Below, one piece after another: positions 44,659 through 52,417 of a DNA stretch of 64,000 nt. The notes beneath the pieces are model-generated. The model saw only the letters and a program-made list of their open reading frames with translations. It was not told the origin of the DNA and did no database searches. Position 1 is the first letter of the stretch. Each line of letters starts with the position of its first letter. The position numbers were made by a program, and so were the translations under genes. The stretch comes from Candidatus Merdivicinus intestinigallinarum (GTDB lineage Bacteria; Bacillota; Clostridia; Oscillospirales; Ruminococcaceae): NCBI GenBank assembly GCA_018713335.1, contig DVOW01000032.1:19816-83815 (forward strand), read 5' to 3'.

Positions 44659-45540
44659 TTGCGGGAGTTTTTTAAAAGCCTGCGCTTTAAAATCATCCTG
44701 GCGGTAGTCGCCGTGATTTTAGGCGGGATGCTGTATGCCGCCACCACCGGCGGCCTGGCCACTCTGCCGGAGCAAATCCTTTCTTATGTGGTGTACCCGG
44801 TGCAGCGGGCGGCGGCGGCCGTTTCCGACAGCATTACCGGCTTTTTCTCCGTTTTTGTGGACGCCCGGGAAAACTATGAGGAAAACCAGCGCCTGAAAGA
44901 GGAAAACGCCGAGCTGCGCCGCCAGCTGGTGGACTATGAGGACACCAAAACCGAAAACGAACGGCTGAAGGAAATCACCGGCCTCAAAGAGCTGAACCCG
45001 GACATCGAGTTCCAGCCGGCCGGGGTCATCGCCCGGGACCCGGAGGACCGGTTCGGGGCCTTTACCATTGACATCGGCTACCTCCATGGGATCTCCGTCC
45101 GGGACCCTGTGGTGACCGGGGAAGGCTTAGTGGGATATGTCAGCAAGGTGGGGCCCACCTACGCTGTTGTCACCACTATTTTGAGCCCGGACTGCAATGT
45201 GGGGGCCATGGAGATCTCCACCAAAGATACGGGCAATATCACCGGCACTGTGGAGCTGGCGGCGGAAGGCTGCACCAAACTGGAGCTCCTTCCCCGGGAT
45301 ACCCTGGTGGAGGAGGGCGGCACCGTTGTCACCGCCGGCACCAGCGGCCTGTTCCCTAAAAATATCGTCATTGGGACAGTGGAGAAGGTGGAGCTGGAAA
45401 CCTCCGGCATCACCTCCTATGCGGTCATCCGGCCCGTCAGCGAGATCGATGAGATCAAGAACGTCTTTGTGCTGACGGACTTCCTGGGCAAAGGCTCCTC
45501 AGAAACGGAAGGAGGGGAGAGCAGTGACGCTGGGACATAA
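44659..45540 (+). CDS. mreC: Rod-shape-determining protein MreC
   Basis: One N-terminal membrane helix (FKIILAVVAVILGGMLYAA), a coiled coil at residues about 70-105 (ENYEENQRLKEENAELRRQLVDYEDTKTENERLKEI), then two beta-barrel domains. It starts at TTG after GAAAGGGGGG. It bridges MreB and the PBPs. Overlaps mreD by 17 bases. Confidence 0.93.
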   Translation: MREFFKSLRFKIILAVVAVILGGMLYAATTGGLATLPEQILSYVVYPVQRAAAAVSDSITGFFSVFVDARENYEENQRLKEENAELRRQLVDYEDTKTENERLKEITGLKELNPDIEFQPAGVIARDPEDRFGAFTIDIGYLHGISVRDPVVTGEGLVGYVSKVGPTYAVVTTILSPDCNVGAMEISTKDTGNITGTVELAAEGCTKLELLPRDTLVEEGGTVVTAGTSGLFPKNIVIGTVEKVELETSGITSYAVIRPVSEIDEIKNVFVLTDFLGKGSSETEGGESSDAGT

Positions 45541-46045
45541 TGCCAGGACGGCCTTGAAATGGGGCTGTTATATCCTGGTCCTGCTGCTGCTTTTCGGCCT
45601 TCAGTCCTCGCCGGGGCTGCTTTCCATCGGCGGGGTCAAGCCGGTCCTGATCGTCCCGGCGGCCATTTCCGTGGCGCTTTTTGAAAACGAGGCGGGGTCC
45701 GGCGCTTTCGGGCTGGGGGCCGGGCTTTTGTGGGATCTTTCGGCGGCAAAGCTCTTTGGCTTTTACGGCATGGTGCTGATGATCTGCTGTGTCTGCGTGG
45801 CCCTTCTGTCCATGTATTTTGTCAAGGTCAACTGGACCAACGCCGTGCTGCTGACAGGGTGCGCGGGGCTTTTATGCACCCTTTGGAACTTTCTGTTTTA
45901 CTACCTCATATGGGGCTATGAGGATGTGTGGATGTGCCTGGTCCGGCTGCTGCTGGTGCTGGTGTACACCATCGTCCTGGCCGCCCCGGTGTATTTCTTG
46001 ATCCGGCTCATCTCGGTCCGGTTCAACGAAGTGGTCCGGGCGTAA
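45524..46045 (+). CDS. mreD: Rod-shape-determining protein MreD
   Basis: A polytopic protein of 173 residues, about five membrane spans, starting at GTG within the end of mreC. PVLIVPAAISVALFENEAGSGAFGLGAGLLWDLS is characteristic of the family. Acts with MreC in the elongasome. Confidence 0.9.
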   Translation: MTLGHNARTALKWGCYILVLLLLFGLQSSPGLLSIGGVKPVLIVPAAISVALFENEAGSGAFGLGAGLLWDLSAAKLFGFYGMVLMICCVCVALLSMYFVKVNWTNAVLLTGCAGLLCTLWNFLFYYLIWGYEDVWMCLVRLLLVLVYTIVLAAPVYFLIRLISVRFNEVVRA

Positions 46046-46063
46046 TGCCCTTGCGTATGAAAT

Positions 46064-46103
46064 AGCTGTCCTGTTCCCAAACGGGCAGGGCAGCTTTTGT
46101 TTT
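46064..46103 (+). terminator. Terminator-like hairpin between mreD and PBP2
   Basis: AGCTGtCCTG...CAGGgCAGCT then TTTTGTTTT, in the 80-base gap before the PBP2 gene. No promoter is obvious after it, so it may lower PBP2 expression relative to MreBCD. Confidence 0.65.
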
Positions 46104-46126
46104 CCGGCATTGAAAAGGAGGTGCTT

Positions 46127-48217
46127 ATGCTGTCTAATAAACCGCAAAAGCCCAAGGAACGGGGCAGACTGATCACTCTCAGTATTTTATCTGCCATTGT
46201 GTGCGGGGCGTATGCTTTGCAGCTGATGAATTTCCAGGTGGTGCGGGGGGCGGAATTTCAGGCCCAGACCCAGCAGATGACGGTGAGCAAGATCGCCGTC
46301 AAAGCCGCCCGGGGGGAAATTACTGACTGCAACGGCGTGGCCCTGGCCAAAAATAAAGTGGGCTTCAATATCGTCTTTTATTACTCCTTTTTCCCGGCGG
46401 AGGAACGCAACGAGATCATCGCCCGGCTCATCCAGATGATGGAGGCCAACGGCGAGGAATGGCACGACCCCCTGCCTATGACGGTCAGCGGGCAGCCGGA
46501 GTTTTTGGAGAACCGGGACTCGGATATTGAAACCTTAAAGGAAAAGCTCCAGGTCAACGTTTACGCCACGGCGGACGACTGCATGTACCAGCTGCGGGAT
46601 CTGTTTGATATCGACGAATCCTACGACGACCTGACGGCACGGAAGATCGCCGGGGTGCGGTACGGCATGGTGCTGGCGGATTTTTCCGTCAACAATAACC
46701 AGTACACCTTCGCGGAGGACGTTTCCACGGAAACCGTTACCCAGATCAAGGAGCTTTCCTACCAGTTCCCCGGGGTGGATATCGTGGACGAGGATATCCG
46801 GGTCTATCCGGACGGCGACCTGGCCTCCCATATTGTGGGCGTCGTCGGGCAGATGTACGCGGAGCAGTATTACGGCGACCCGGAAAACGGGGTGGCCGGG
46901 TATCGGGACAAGGGGTATCCCATGAACGCCCTGATCGGCCGTTTCGGGGTGGAAAGCCTGATGGAATCGGAGCTGCACGGGGTGGACGGCGTCAAAACCG
47001 TGGAGCAGAGCAAGGACGGGGCGATCTTGAGCGAAACAGTTACCCAGGAGCCGGAATCCGGCAATAATGTGGCCCTGACCATTGATTCCCGGCTGCAAAG
47101 CCGCATCCAGGATGTGCTGAACCAGTACATCGAATACCTCCGGTCCCTGCCGGACGATCCGGACGGGGACGACAATGGAAATCAGGTGGTAGGCGGGGCA
47201 GTGGTGGTGCTGGACGCCAAAACCGGCGGCGTGCTGGCGGCAGTGACCGCCCCAACCTACGATTTGAACCAGTATTTTTCCGATTACAGCGAGCTGTCCT
47301 CCCGGGAGGACCTGCCCATGCTGAACCGGGCCTTCGACGGCCTGTACCGGCCCGGCTCCACCTTTAAGACCGCGGTGGCCGCCGGGGCGCTGACAGAGGA
47401 CCTCATCACGCCTTACGACACGGTGGACTGCCGCCGGGTCTACACCTACTATGATTACATCCCGGGGAACCAATTCCGCCCCACCTGTCTGGGCTACCAC
47501 GGCGCCACCAATGTCATGGAGGCCCTGACCGTTTCCTGCAACATTTTCTTCTACGATGTGGGCCGCAGGCTTGGCATTGACAAGATCCAGGAATACGCCC
47601 ATCTGCTGGGTCTTGGAACGGACACGGGGCTGGAGCTTTCCAACGCTGTGGGCGGCATCTCCGGGCCGGACCGTTCCGAGCTTCTGGGGACCACCTGGCA
47701 GCCGGGCAACGTCTGCCAGACCTCCATCGGCCAGATGGATACAGCGGTCACTCCCCTCCAGCTGGCGGTCCAGGCCATGACCCTGGCCAATCAGGGGCTT
47801 CGGTACCGGGCCCATATCATCAAGGAAGTCCGCAGCTACGACGACGCGGAGGTGCTGTCCAGCACGGAACCGGAGGTCATGTCTGAATTTACCATATCCG
47901 GCGAGGACTTTGAGGCTATCAAGGCCGGTATGATCGGCGTTTCGGAAAGCGTAGCGGAACGGTACAGCGTCCTGGGCTGGAACACTAGCCTGACGGACCT
48001 GGGCTACGACGTGGCCATGAAAACCGGTACCCCCCAGGTAACGGCCACCACCTTCAGCTCCTCGGCCATTGCCTTTGCCCCGGCGGACGACGCGGACATC
48101 GCCATCGGCATTATTCTGGAACGGGGCGCGGACGCCAGAAACCTGGTGCGGCCCATTTTGGACGCTTATACGGAGCTGTATGGACAGCCCGCCGCGGCGT
48201 CTGATGCGGAGAGTTGA
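46127..48217 (+). CDS. mrdA: Penicillin-binding protein 2 (transpeptidase of the elongasome)
   Basis: Cross-links lateral-wall peptidoglycan. One anchor helix at residues about 17-36, then the N-terminal pedestal and a transpeptidase domain with SxxK in RPGSTFKTAVAAG (about residue 410), SxN in VSCNIFFYDVG and KTG in AMKTGTPQVT. The start at 46127 follows AAAAGGAGG, giving 696 residues. It is the PBP2-type partner expected after mreBCD, although a RodA gene is absent from the window. Confidence 0.93.
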   Translation: MLSNKPQKPKERGRLITLSILSAIVCGAYALQLMNFQVVRGAEFQAQTQQMTVSKIAVKAARGEITDCNGVALAKNKVGFNIVFYYSFFPAEERNEIIARLIQMMEANGEEWHDPLPMTVSGQPEFLENRDSDIETLKEKLQVNVYATADDCMYQLRDLFDIDESYDDLTARKIAGVRYGMVLADFSVNNNQYTFAEDVSTETVTQIKELSYQFPGVDIVDEDIRVYPDGDLASHIVGVVGQMYAEQYYGDPENGVAGYRDKGYPMNALIGRFGVESLMESELHGVDGVKTVEQSKDGAILSETVTQEPESGNNVALTIDSRLQSRIQDVLNQYIEYLRSLPDDPDGDDNGNQVVGGAVVVLDAKTGGVLAAVTAPTYDLNQYFSDYSELSSREDLPMLNRAFDGLYRPGSTFKTAVAAGALTEDLITPYDTVDCRRVYTYYDYIPGNQFRPTCLGYHGATNVMEALTVSCNIFFYDVGRRLGIDKIQEYAHLLGLGTDTGLELSNAVGGISGPDRSELLGTTWQPGNVCQTSIGQMDTAVTPLQLAVQAMTLANQGLRYRAHIIKEVRSYDDAEVLSSTEPEVMSEFTISGEDFEAIKAGMIGVSESVAERYSVLGWNTSLTDLGYDVAMKTGTPQVTATTFSSSAIAFAPADDADIAIGIILERGADARNLVRPILDAYTELYGQPAAASDAES

Positions 48218-48298
48218 GAATGCATAGAAAACGGGATAAATTTTTATGAAAATGACAGAAAATTTTGGGAGCCTATGGAAAAAATAAGAGAAATGTGA

Positions 48299-48304
48299 TA
48301 TAAT
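48299..48304 (+). promoter_or_regulatory. Extended -10 promoter of minD
   Basis: TGATATAAT, with TG one base before TATAAT (48299-48304). No good -35 is visible. Confidence 0.5.
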
Positions 48305-48377
48305 TTTTTAAAAGTGTAATCTGGATATGTATGCCGAAGTGTTCACTTGATTTCGTTCATATGGAGAAGACGCAGTT

Positions 48378-49151
48378 ATGGCTTGGGATTCGTCAAATCG
48401 TCCCGGGGAACCGGAGCAAAACCAAGTAATCGCCATGACCTCCGGGAAAGGCGGCGTGGGGAAATCGACCCTTTGCGTGCTTTTGGGCCTTGGGGACGCT
48501 TTGCGGGGAAAGCGGGTCCTGCTCATTGAGTTTGACGCAGGGCTGCGGGGACTGGATCTCATGCTGGGGATCGCGGACCGGGTGGTGTACGATTTGGGCG
48601 ATCTGCTGGAGGGCCGTTGCACCATCAGCAAGGCTGTGATGGAATCCCCCCTGCACGAAAACCTGAACGCGATCGTGGCCCCGGTCAGCCTGGAAGCGCC
48701 TATGGACCTTTCGGATGTGCAGCTGCTGGTGGACGGCCTGCGGGGGCATTTCGACCGGCTCATTTTGGATATGCCGGCGGGCTTAGGCTTTTCCGCCAGG
48801 ATCACCGGCTGCACCGCCGATCTTGCCCTGATCGCCGTAACGCCGGACCCAGTGTGCGTCCGGGACGGCGCGAAAATGGCGCAGACGCTGGAAAAGCGGG
48901 GCTTTTACAGGCACCGGCTCCTGATCAACCGGGTGGAGGAGAAAATGCTCCGGCGCGCGGTCTTGACGGATCTGGACGCGGTGATCGACGGCGTAGGGTC
49001 CCAGCTATTGGGCGTTTTCCCCTATGCGGAGGAGATCCCCCTGCGGCTCTCCAGAGGACTTCAGCTGAAAGGGAACCATCCGGCGCTTCGCATCGCGCAG
49101 GCGGTTTCCAGACGCTTAGACGGGGAATATGTCCCCCTTGTTTTTCCTTGA
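48378..49151 (+). CDS. minD: MinD-like septum-site-determining ATPase without MinC or MinE neighbour
   Basis: A deviant Walker A (TSGKGGVGKSTLCVLLGLGDALRGK), switch I FDAGLRGLDLMLG and Walker B LILDMPAGLG place it in the MinD/ParA group, and VYDLGDLLEGRCTISKAV is MinD-like. After ~18 extra residues at the start, the fold begins. Two things are odd. The C-terminus (ALRIAQAVSRRLDGEYVPLVFP) lacks an obvious amphipathic membrane-targeting helix, and no minC, minE or rodA/ftsW gene sits next to it. It follows PBP2 with its own promoter. It could be a degenerate MinD or a related ATPase. Confidence 0.82.
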   Translation: MAWDSSNRPGEPEQNQVIAMTSGKGGVGKSTLCVLLGLGDALRGKRVLLIEFDAGLRGLDLMLGIADRVVYDLGDLLEGRCTISKAVMESPLHENLNAIVAPVSLEAPMDLSDVQLLVDGLRGHFDRLILDMPAGLGFSARITGCTADLALIAVTPDPVCVRDGAKMAQTLEKRGFYRHRLLINRVEEKMLRRAVLTDLDAVIDGVGSQLLGVFPYAEEIPLRLSRGLQLKGNHPALRIAQAVSRRLDGEYVPLVFP

Positions 49152-49246: not shown

Positions 49247-49648
49247 ATGAATATCGCACTGATTGCGCATGATACAAAAAAGGAACTGATGGTGCAGTTC
49301 TGCATTGCTTACTGCGGGATCATGAGCCGCCACCGCCTGTGCTCTACCGGCACTACCGGCAAGCTGATCTCGGAAGCCACCGGCCTGGACATCAAACGCT
49401 TTTTGAGCAGCTCTCAGGGCGGCGACCAGCAGATCGCGTCCCTGATCGCCTGCAATGAAATCGACCTGTTGCTCTTTTTCCGGGACCCCCTGACCACCAA
49501 GACCCATGAGAGCAACGAAATGAACCTGCTCCGGCTCTGCGATGTTCACAATATCCCGGTGGCCACCAATATCGCCACGGCGGAAGTGCTGATCCACGGC
49601 CTGGAACGGGGCGATCTGGATTGGCGGATCATTGTCAGCCAGCGCTGA
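49247..49648 (+). CDS. mgsA: Methylglyoxal synthase
   Basis: Converts dihydroxyacetone phosphate to methylglyoxal and phosphate, a bypass under sugar-phosphate stress. Phosphate-binding STGTTGKLI, the catalytic aspartate in [11 protein letters not shown] and [14 protein letters not shown] are all present. Length 133 residues, slightly short of E. coli MgsA. RBS AAGGAGGAA. Usually found in Clostridia close to the mre/min block, as here. Confidence 0.95.
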
Positions 49649-49746
49649 CGCTGTTTGCAAATGAATAGCCAAGGGGTGCCGCTTGTCTGAAAACGGGCGG
49701 GGGTATCCCTTTCTTTGCTTGTATAGAATTAGAAAGTGGGAATGTC

Positions 49747-50610
49747 ATGAATATGGAACGCACCGGCGGCTTTGTCATCCGCCCCCCGGAAAGCGCCGGA
49801 TGGCAGTCTGCGGAGCGCTTTTTTCTGGATACGGCCCGGCTGGCCGGGTATGAGGAAGTCCGCTTCCCTGCCGGGGAGAAGCCGGATTTTGCAGAACTTG
49901 AGCCGGCGAAATACAGTTATGTGATGCCCTCCCATCGAATGGGCGCAGCGGCGGTTGGCGTTGGCAGTCCGGCCGCAGCGGCGGAGCTGGCGGCAATGGC
50001 CGGGGATTTCCTGGGCTTTTTGGGCCTTCAGGAGGTTTCCCTTGTGATTTTCGGCCCGGAAAAGCTGATTGGCAGGTTGGGAGATGTGTTGTCTGCCCTG
50101 CAGTTGGAGTATACCGCCATGGACGGGGATGATTTTTCTTTCTGCCTGGCGGCAGGCCCCCGGGAAATCGGATGGGGCGGAAGCTTGGAGCCCTCCGGTT
50201 TCTGGATGGAGCTGGATACAGGGATGGTTTTGGAGGCAGTCAAAGAGCAGGGAGCGTCCCTGCCCAAGGCGGACCCTTTGATGCTCTATCTTTGCCCCGC
50301 AGGCCCGGAAGGTGAGCTTGCGGCCCTTTCCATTGCGGAGGAACTGCGGAGCGAGGGATTTTCCGCGGAGGCGGACTGGTCCGGATGCGCTCCGGAGGAA
50401 GGGATCGCCAAAGCCCGGCAGAAGGGGGCCCGGTATTTCTGCGCCGTGGACGGAACGGCGGCTGACGGGAAAATCTCCATCCTCTCCCTGGAGGACGGGA
50501 CCTCCGCATCCGTGGCCCTGGGCGACGGGCTGACCCGCTTTTTCTATGACAGCGAGCTGTCGGAATTAAGCGGCGCTCTGGACGGGGTCCCTTTTTCCCT
50601 GGATATTTAG
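49747..50610 (+). CDS. Degenerate histidyl-tRNA synthetase-like protein
   Basis: A 287-residue ORF just before aspS, where Firmicutes normally keep hisS. HisRS features survive: the motif-1-like RLAGYEEVRFP, AAAELAAMAGDFLGFLGLQEVSLVIF (cf. DAEVIALAYDLLKALGLKDVTLEI), EIGWGGSLEPSG...ELDTGMVLEAV (cf. GGRYD...G.G.G.ER), and a recognisable anticodon-like tail (PLMLYLCPAGPEGELAALSIAEELRSEGFSAEADWSGCAPEEGIAKARQKGARYFCAVDGT). Motif 2 and the histidine-binding LVRGLDYYTG are missing. It cannot be a working HisRS. It may be a HisZ-like or other regulatory paralogue, or a decaying gene; the frame is intact. ATG at 49747 or 49753 is possible. Confidence 0.7.
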   Translation: MNMERTGGFVIRPPESAGWQSAERFFLDTARLAGYEEVRFPAGEKPDFAELEPAKYSYVMPSHRMGAAAVGVGSPAAAAELAAMAGDFLGFLGLQEVSLVIFGPEKLIGRLGDVLSALQLEYTAMDGDDFSFCLAAGPREIGWGGSLEPSGFWMELDTGMVLEAVKEQGASLPKADPLMLYLCPAGPEGELAALSIAEELRSEGFSAEADWSGCAPEEGIAKARQKGARYFCAVDGTAADGKISILSLEDGTSASVALGDGLTRFFYDSELSELSGALDGVPFSLDI

Positions 50611-50635: not shown

Positions 50636-52417
50636 ATGGCAGAAACAATGCGCGGGCTGAAACGGAGCTGCTACTGCGGCCAGGTTTCCACTGCGGATAT
50701 TGGAAAAGAAATCGTGGTAGGGGGGTTCACCCAGAAGCAGCGGGACAAGGGCGAGCTGGTCTTTATCGACCTGCGGGACCGCACCGGCATCGTCCAGCTG
50801 ATTTTTGACGAGAAATCCGACCGGGGCGTCATTGCCAAGGCAAAAGAGGTCCGCTCCGAGTATGTGCTCATGGCCAAGGGCTTGGTGCGCCGCCGAGAAA
50901 GCGTCAACCACGACATCCCCACCGGCGAGGTGGAGATCTTCGTCACCGAGCTGCGGATCCTCTCCAAAGCCCAGACGCCGCCTTTCCACATCAGCGACGA
51001 AAGCGACACCAACGAGGAGCTGCGGCTGCGCTACCGTTACCTGGACCTGCGCCGGCCTGCTTTGCAGAAAAACCTCATGTTCCGGGCGGAGCTGGCCCGG
51101 GCCGCCCGGGATTATTTCGCGGAAAACGGCTTTATTGAAATCGAAACGCCCATGATGATCAAATCCACCCCGGAAGGCGCCCGGGACTATGTGGTGCCCT
51201 CCCGGGTCCACAACGGCAGCTTTTACGCTCTGCCCCAGTCCCCCCAGATCTACAAGCAGCTGCTGATGATCTCCGGCTTTGACCGGTACATCCAGCTGGC
51301 CCGGTGCTTCCGGGACGAGGACCTGCGGGCGGACCGCCAGCCGGAATTTACCCAGATCGACATGGAAATGTCCTTTGTGGACATGGAGGACGTGCTGGAT
51401 ATGGGCGAAGGCTTTGTCCGGTACATTATGAAACGCCTGAAAAACATTGACATCACCGAGCCCCTGCCCCGCCTGACCTATAAAGACGCCATGGAACGGT
51501 ACGGCTCCGACAAGCCGGACATCCGCTACGGCATGGAGATTACCGACCTGTCCGACCTGGTGAAAGACTGCGGCTTCTCCGTCTTCGCTTCCGCGGTGGA
51601 AAACGGCGGCAGCGTCCGGGGCATCACGGTGAAAAACGGCGCGTCCGTTTATACCCGCAAGGAAATCGACAAATTGACCGAGCACGCCAAGGGCATCGGG
51701 GCCAAGGGCCTGGCTTGGGTACGCTGGGTGGATGAGAAACCCGCCTGCTCTTTCGCCAAATTCATGAGCGAGGAAGAACTGGCCGCCATCCTGGCCCGCA
51801 TGGGCTGCGAAAAGGGCGACGTGGCCCTGATCGTGGCGGACAAGGACCGGGTGACACTGCCTGTTTTGGGCGCTCTGCGGCAGATCTGCGCCAAACGCAT
51901 GGACATCATCCCCGAAGGCTACGCCTTCCTGTGGATCACCGAGTTCCCCTTCTTCGAGTGGGACGACGAGTCCCAGACCTGGGTCGCTATGCACCATCCC
52001 TTCACCATGCCCATGGACGAGTGCCTGGGCTCCCTGGAATCCGACCCCGATTCTGTCCGGGCCAAAGCTTACGACCTGGTACTCAACGGCATCGAGCTGT
52101 GCAGCGGCTCCATCCGCATCACCGACTACGAGCTTCAGCAGAAGATGTTTGAGCTGTTAGGGCTTACGGATGAGGAAATCGAGGCCAAATTCGGCTTCTT
52201 AGTGGAAGCGTACAAATACGGCGCGCCGCCTCACGGCGGATTGGGCCTTGGCCTGGACCGGTTGGCCATGCTGCTGTGCGGCGCCGACAACATCCGGGAC
52301 GTCACCGCTTTCCCCAAGGTGCAGAACGCCAGCGAGCTCATGAGTGGCTGCCCTGCTCCCATCGACTTCAAACAGCTGGAGGAACTTGGGATTTCCGTAA
52401 CCAAAACAGAAGAATAA
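50636..52417 (+). CDS. aspS: Aspartyl-tRNA synthetase
   Basis: Charges tRNA-Asp. The N-terminal OB domain (VVGGFTQKQRDKGELVFIDLRDRTGIVQLIFDE) is followed by the class II core with motif 2 ARCFRDEDLRADRQPEFTQIDMEMSF and motif 3 GLGLGLDRLAMLL, and a bacterial GAD insertion. Taking the second ATG gives 593 residues; ATG 50624 would add four. RBS is weak. It lies 13-25 bases after the HisRS-like gene and is probably translated with it. Confidence 0.95.
   Translation: MAETMRGLKRSCYCGQVSTADIGKEIVVGGFTQKQRDKGELVFIDLRDRTGIVQLIFDEKSDRGVIAKAKEVRSEYVLMAKGLVRRRESVNHDIPTGEVEIFVTELRILSKAQTPPFHISDESDTNEELRLRYRYLDLRRPALQKNLMFRAELARAARDYFAENGFIEIETPMMIKSTPEGARDYVVPSRVHNGSFYALPQSPQIYKQLLMISGFDRYIQLARCFRDEDLRADRQPEFTQIDMEMSFVDMEDVLDMGEGFVRYIMKRLKNIDITEPLPRLTYKDAMERYGSDKPDIRYGMEITDLSDLVKDCGFSVFASAVENGGSVRGITVKNGASVYTRKEIDKLTEHAKGIGAKGLAWVRWVDEKPACSFAKFMSEEELAAILARMGCEKGDVALIVADKDRVTLPVLGALRQICAKRMDIIPEGYAFLWITEFPFFEWDDESQTWVAMHHPFTMPMDECLGSLESDPDSVRAKAYDLVLNGIELCSGSIRITDYELQQKMFELLGLTDEEIEAKFGFLVEAYKYGAPPHGGLGLGLDRLAMLLCGADNIRDVTAFPKVQNASELMSGCPAPIDFKQLEELGISVTKTEE

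Follow-up and report, generated by a model that had tools for sequence, protein, structure and literature searches.

A 287-residue relative of HisRS is encoded immediately 5' of aspS in the window, i.e., the whole stretch of 64,000 nucleotides from Candidatus Merdivicinus intestinigallinarum that was analyzed here (Table 1), and it is very probably descended from the native hisS of this lineage. We suggest that the native enzyme was displaced by a foreign HisRS, lost its active site, and was retained as a pseudoenzyme acting by protein contact; taken as a whole, this best explanation has about an even chance of being right, and its parts are of different strength.

Table 1. Features of the locus (positions in the window; residue numbers refer to the 287-aa protein)
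Feature	Position	Strand	Basis
HisRS-derived pseudoenzyme, 287 aa, very probably the native hisS remnant	49747..50610	+	homology, model, dN/dS
N-terminal (motif 1) helix and next strand, kept, residues 15-38; one of the two best-conserved stretches among the short forms	49789..49860	+	model secondary structure, conservation profile
Strand-helix-strand that follows the missing motif 2 loop, kept, residues 63-110	49933..50076	+	alignment, model
What is left of the HisA/motif 3 region, shrunken and without catalytic residues (residues 123-167); contains the least conserved stretch	50113..50247	+	alignment, conservation profile
Fold of the anticodon-binding domain, residues 178-258, without the basic motif R-S-L/V-K-A-Q-M-K-Y-A	50278..50520	+	Pfam, alignment
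C-terminal helix past the anticodon domain, residues 260-279 (LTRFFYDSELSELSGALDG), top conservation	50524..50583	+	model, conservation profile
mgsA-like 5' neighbor	49247..49648	+	named from sequence; synteny conserved in relatives
aspS, next gene 3'	50636..52417	+	
Strong hairpin AAGGGGTGCCGC...GGTATCCCTT in the interval separating mgsA from the pseudoenzyme gene	49671..49711	+	z -3.2

The 287-aa protein belongs to the HisRS superfamily by both sequence and fold. It matched the NCBIfam hisS model (TIGR00442) in three stretches with E=1.8e-13 and 50.3 bits, below the curated cut-off of 286.75 bits; Pfam HGTP_anticodon was matched at residues 185-260 (E=5e-5), and the sequence also matched the Staphylococcus aureus HisRS 1qe0 in the PDB (E=6.5e-6). 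HisRS accounted for all of the 21 best PDB fold matches of an AlphaFold model (mean pLDDT 91.6; top match E=3.7e-19, TMq 0.72). A second model, built only from the short forms, that is, this protein and its counterparts in relatives, to limit circularity, had a pLDDT of 78.7, and 20 HisRS chains ranked first in its PDB fold search, with TM-scores of just ~0.5 that reflect either domain orientation or model quality. The HisRS fold elements and anticodon-like tail recognized in a first-pass annotation of this DNA were thereby substantiated, and the AlphaFold comparison that it had proposed returned no best match unrelated to class II aaRS.

Alignment with the full-length HisRS (445 aa) of G001, another species of the genus, demonstrated that the 287-aa protein lacks ~40 residues that lie between motif 1 and motif 2, the RxE loop of motif 2 (CFRxEKPQAGR; the arginine and RxE are absent in all short forms), the whole insertion domain, the HisA motifs RGLDYY and GGGRYDG, and motif 3. 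What is kept comprises the N-terminal helix and strand, a core sheet of reduced size, the fold of the anticodon-binding domain, and a C-terminal helix. The first-pass annotation had noted the loss of motif 2 and of the histidine-binding loop, and the losses proved larger than this; its estimate of ~130 missing residues holds against a typical HisRS and becomes 158 against the same-genus copy. The conserved basic stretch of the anticodon domain, GRS(L/V)KAQMKYADKIGAK, reads GCAPEEGIAKARQKGAR in the 287-aa protein, and in the short forms acidic or neutral residues stand in its place. The short forms have a pI of 4.1-4.45 and a net charge of -19 to -30 (about -25 for the 287-aa protein), compared with -3 to -16 for five full-length relatives. 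A class II synthetase without motif 2, the HisA motifs, and motif 3 cannot activate histidine. Judged from its sequence, the 287-aa protein is unable to catalyze aminoacylation; it is likewise predicted to bind neither histidine nor ATP, and tRNA binding is improbable as well.

The gap between this gene and aspS is 25 nt when the aspS start is taken as 50636, and from the gene position co-expression with AspRS is probable. The hairpin upstream, which is conserved in G004 and apparently also in G002, gave no Rfam match; it probably serves as a terminator or as a leader hairpin. T-box regulation was rejected: no T-box was found at this locus or at loci L001, L005, L007, and L008. T-box leaders were seen 5' of the native hisS-aspS in two relatives, G029 and G010 (loci L011 and L012). 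Farther 5' of mgsA, mreD-like, penicillin-binding protein, and minD-like genes lie in series at 45524-49151 of the window, with no obvious minC or minE among them.

Foreign synthetases are well known to replace essential native ones, and the genome that holds the window (G000) encodes a second HisRS on contig C4 (45673-46908, 412 aa), in which RAERPQKGR, RGQGYY, GGGRYDGL, and motif 3 are all intact. The real hisS that the first-pass annotation had expected elsewhere was thus located. This enzyme (L043/L085) is nearest by sequence to PDB 6nhi and human cytosolic HisRS; the final strands of the anticodon domain, present in native HisRS, are absent from it. Trans-complementation of its short C-terminus by the 287-aa protein was considered and rejected, because copies of similar length occur in many genomes without a remnant. 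Of the 126 genera sampled from the family, 26 contained the foreign type at E<=1e-30. In the family sample of 249 genomes, it was present at >=47% identity in 43; the model used detected full-length native hisS in none of these, 37 having no native match and 6 a short form. Native hisS was found in 184 genomes without the foreign type, the majority, although a small number of the matches may be to HisZ alone. Full-length native hisS and foreign HisRS were mutually exclusive (Fisher p=3e-32), and six of the seven sampled short-form genomes carried the foreign enzyme. No HisRS-like frame preceded aspS at any of the aspS loci read in foreign-type genomes that had no native match. The native HisRS was apparently displaced by the foreign one several times within the family. 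No other HisRS was found in the short-form genomes G006 (81% complete) and G244 (95% complete), in which the enzyme may be absent from the assembly, presumably because of an assembly gap in G244. One genome, G190 (contigs C77 and C141), contains a native full-length hisS together with a divergent foreign-type HisRS (41% identity), which may reflect either contamination or displacement at an early stage.

The same gene was sought before aspS in relatives, as the first-pass annotation had advised, and intact short frames were found there in nine species: G000 and G002-G006 of the genus Candidatus Merdivicinus, G036 of a neighboring genus, and, with a more degraded form, two members of a third genus, G175 and G244. 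All nine frames are open, and no frameshifted short copy was found. Matches in G151, G224, G225, and G243 were rejected as further short forms, being probably cut off, since the contigs are short and the match lies near a contig end. No other short form occurred among matches at E<=1e-18 in 197 genomes of the order, a cut-off that a very degraded one could escape. The order mgsA-short form-aspS is present in G000, G003, G004, G005, G006, and G036; a full-length hisS occupies the same spot in G001, a member of the window's genus, in G241 (both with the order minD-mgsA-hisS-aspS), and in G113 and G096 (hisS-aspS with an mgsA tail 5').

These relatives bear on how often the short state arose. In the aspS tree, in which the row for G235 was misread and has a long branch, G241 is the sister of G036 (95/98), and the short state requires three changes. 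A one-residue insertion (DxETL) is common to G036 and G241, and the tail YDxELxELSGALD is shared, whole or in part, by G001 and the short forms of its genus. In G036 the foreign HisRS clusters with the copy of another genus and not with that of the window's genus (82/97), as would fit separate acquisitions. All short forms were united in a HisRS tree (89/94), which disfavored a grouping of G036 with the full-length copy of its sister (p-AU 0.03); this result is suspect because the branches are very long. A single origin is the less favored reading in view of the three changes in the aspS tree and the tail signatures that tie short forms to their own relatives, and sequence comparison points, with good likelihood, to at least three parallel reductions of native hisS.

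The short forms evolve fast, being 35-50% identical among species whose aspS is >90% identical, and few stops arise at 62% GC, where stops make up 2.8% of substitutions. A slowly decaying pseudogene, open by chance in a GC-rich genome, would account for both observations; however, about 3.7 stops are expected by chance between G000 and G004 and 0 were seen, nine frames are intact, and dN/dS is well below 1. This reading is improbable and is largely refuted for the window's genus, in keeping with the earlier argument against simple decay from the open frame and the tight spacing to aspS. For the G000/G004 pair, dN was 0.104 and dS 0.441, giving a dN/dS of 0.24 (95% 0.17-0.33), and the G005/G006 pair gave 0.32 (0.23-0.42). 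In simulations in which stops were forbidden and every missense change was permitted, dN/dS averaged 0.80 for the first pair, never falling below 0.44, and 0.89 for the second, never below 0.62. The observed 0.24, as against ~0.8 for avoidance of stops alone, suggests that the protein itself is under selection, and it is highly probable that the short form is a selected protein, moderately constrained in the window's genus. The chief rival, which we regard as unlikely though well ahead of the other alternatives, is that the remnant is a functionless translated spacer between the operon 5' end and the essential aspS: frameshifts and stops would lower aspS expression by polarity, in-frame shrinkage would be tolerated, and the product would merely have to be soluble and harmless. 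The repeated in-frame shrinkage in three lineages can be explained in this manner, as can the closeness to aspS, the drift toward an acidic and soluble product, the weak constraint in G175/G244 (dN/dS 0.44, 0.28-0.63, at 42% identity, with aspS 96% identical), and the total loss in other lineages. The low dN/dS is not easily explained by it, as the stops-only simulation indicates, nor is the conservation of particular helices beyond overall solubility, and aspS persists in lineages that have lost the remnant.

What the selected protein does is suggested by the distribution of its conservation. Across the six genus members, conservation peaks at residues 21-40 (motif 1 helix, 0.58) and 261-280 (C-terminal helix, 0.63) and is lowest at residues 121-140 in the former active-site region (0.18). 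In class II synthetases the motif 1 helix is part of the dimer interface. Helix peaks with an active-site minimum fit a contact scaffold, whereas a ligand pocket would show the opposite; the idea of an amino-acid sensor, raised in the first-pass annotation along with a HisZ-like subunit and a tRNA-His binder, fails on this minimum and on the loss of all histidine- and ATP-binding motifs. Strong acidity and the loss of tRNA- and histidine-contact motifs make all three readings unlikely. Binding or regulation of tRNA-His through the anticodon domain, whose fold is indeed kept, is very unlikely given that GRS(L/V)KAQMKYADK has been lost to acidic or neutral residues and the net charge is about -25. 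A HisZ-like regulatory subunit or histidine sensor has a known precedent, HisZ being a bacterial regulator derived from HisRS (PMC9437257), and is nevertheless the least probable of the readings: a canonical hisZ adjoins hisG on contig C33 of the same genome (no hisG is near the window's gene, as previously noted), all histidine-site motifs are gone, and the protein scores far better with hisS than with hisZ models (50 bits, as against 17 for the sole HisZ model matched; the best hisZ-model score was 17.2 bits for a cut-off of 643, and TIGR00443 was not reported).

In the explanation that we prefer, displacement followed by retention for protein contact, a horizontally acquired HisRS would have taken over the job of the native clostridial hisS, which, freed from catalysis, would have lost its entire active site and insertion domain through in-frame deletions while remaining folded, protein-coding, and in the aspS operon position. 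The remnant, probably co-expressed with AspRS, may act by protein-protein contact via two retained helices, the N-terminal one (class II dimer) and the C-terminal one, putatively as a small partner or a dimer in the translation machinery. We put this contact role at slightly less than even likelihood. Constraint is weaker than on aspS (dN/dS 0.03-0.04) or the foreign HisRS (0.08), and is weak in G175/G244; many foreign-HisRS genomes do without any remnant, so the role is not general; and the conserved helices could be kept for folding alone. It is a tentative and rather doubtful extension that a HisRS-derived non-catalytic partner evolved at least three times in parallel, converging on the same stripped architecture and serving the AspRS/HisRS translation module by contact.

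Several known systems may be compared with this protein. Bacterial HisRS (TIGR00442; 1qe0) has the same fold, domain order, and place before aspS, in keeping with direct descent, but possesses motif 2, the HisA motifs, motif 3, and the insertion domain, all of which are absent from the strongly acidic protein of about 290 aa. HisZ, the ATP phosphoribosyltransferase regulatory subunit, is likewise bacterial, HisRS-derived, and non-catalytic; it keeps the catalytic-domain fold and works with the adjoining HisG, whereas the 287-aa protein keeps the anticodon domain, has no pocket, and lies before aspS. In Gcn2 (PMC4335047), a HisRS-related region is also kept for a non-catalytic role, though Gcn2 binds uncharged tRNA and has a kinase, and the 287-aa protein has neither the tRNA-contact motif nor a kinase. 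Dead paralogs that activate an enzyme partner, such as trypanosome prozyme (PMC5201418), may share a contact mode; the short HisRS, with its putative partner role, differs in having arisen by xenologous displacement and not by duplication. HisZ is the sole function named for bacterial HisRS paralogs in the reviews consulted (including PMC9437257), and our literature searches found no description of a HisRS remnant of this kind. The protein is derived from an aaRS, its catalytic residues are lost, and its sequence is under purifying selection; it is an aaRS-like pseudoenzyme, neither a HisRS by function nor a HisZ, and its probable parallel origin after displacement is the notable part.

The fate of a displaced synthetase is seldom visible. 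Within this one family, three outcomes stand side by side: native hisS is intact, gone, or stripped of its active site under selection, the last apparently in parallel. The family offers a natural experiment in the passage of a housekeeping enzyme to a pseudoenzyme, and in whether synthetase scaffolds hold non-catalytic duties that may outlast catalysis.
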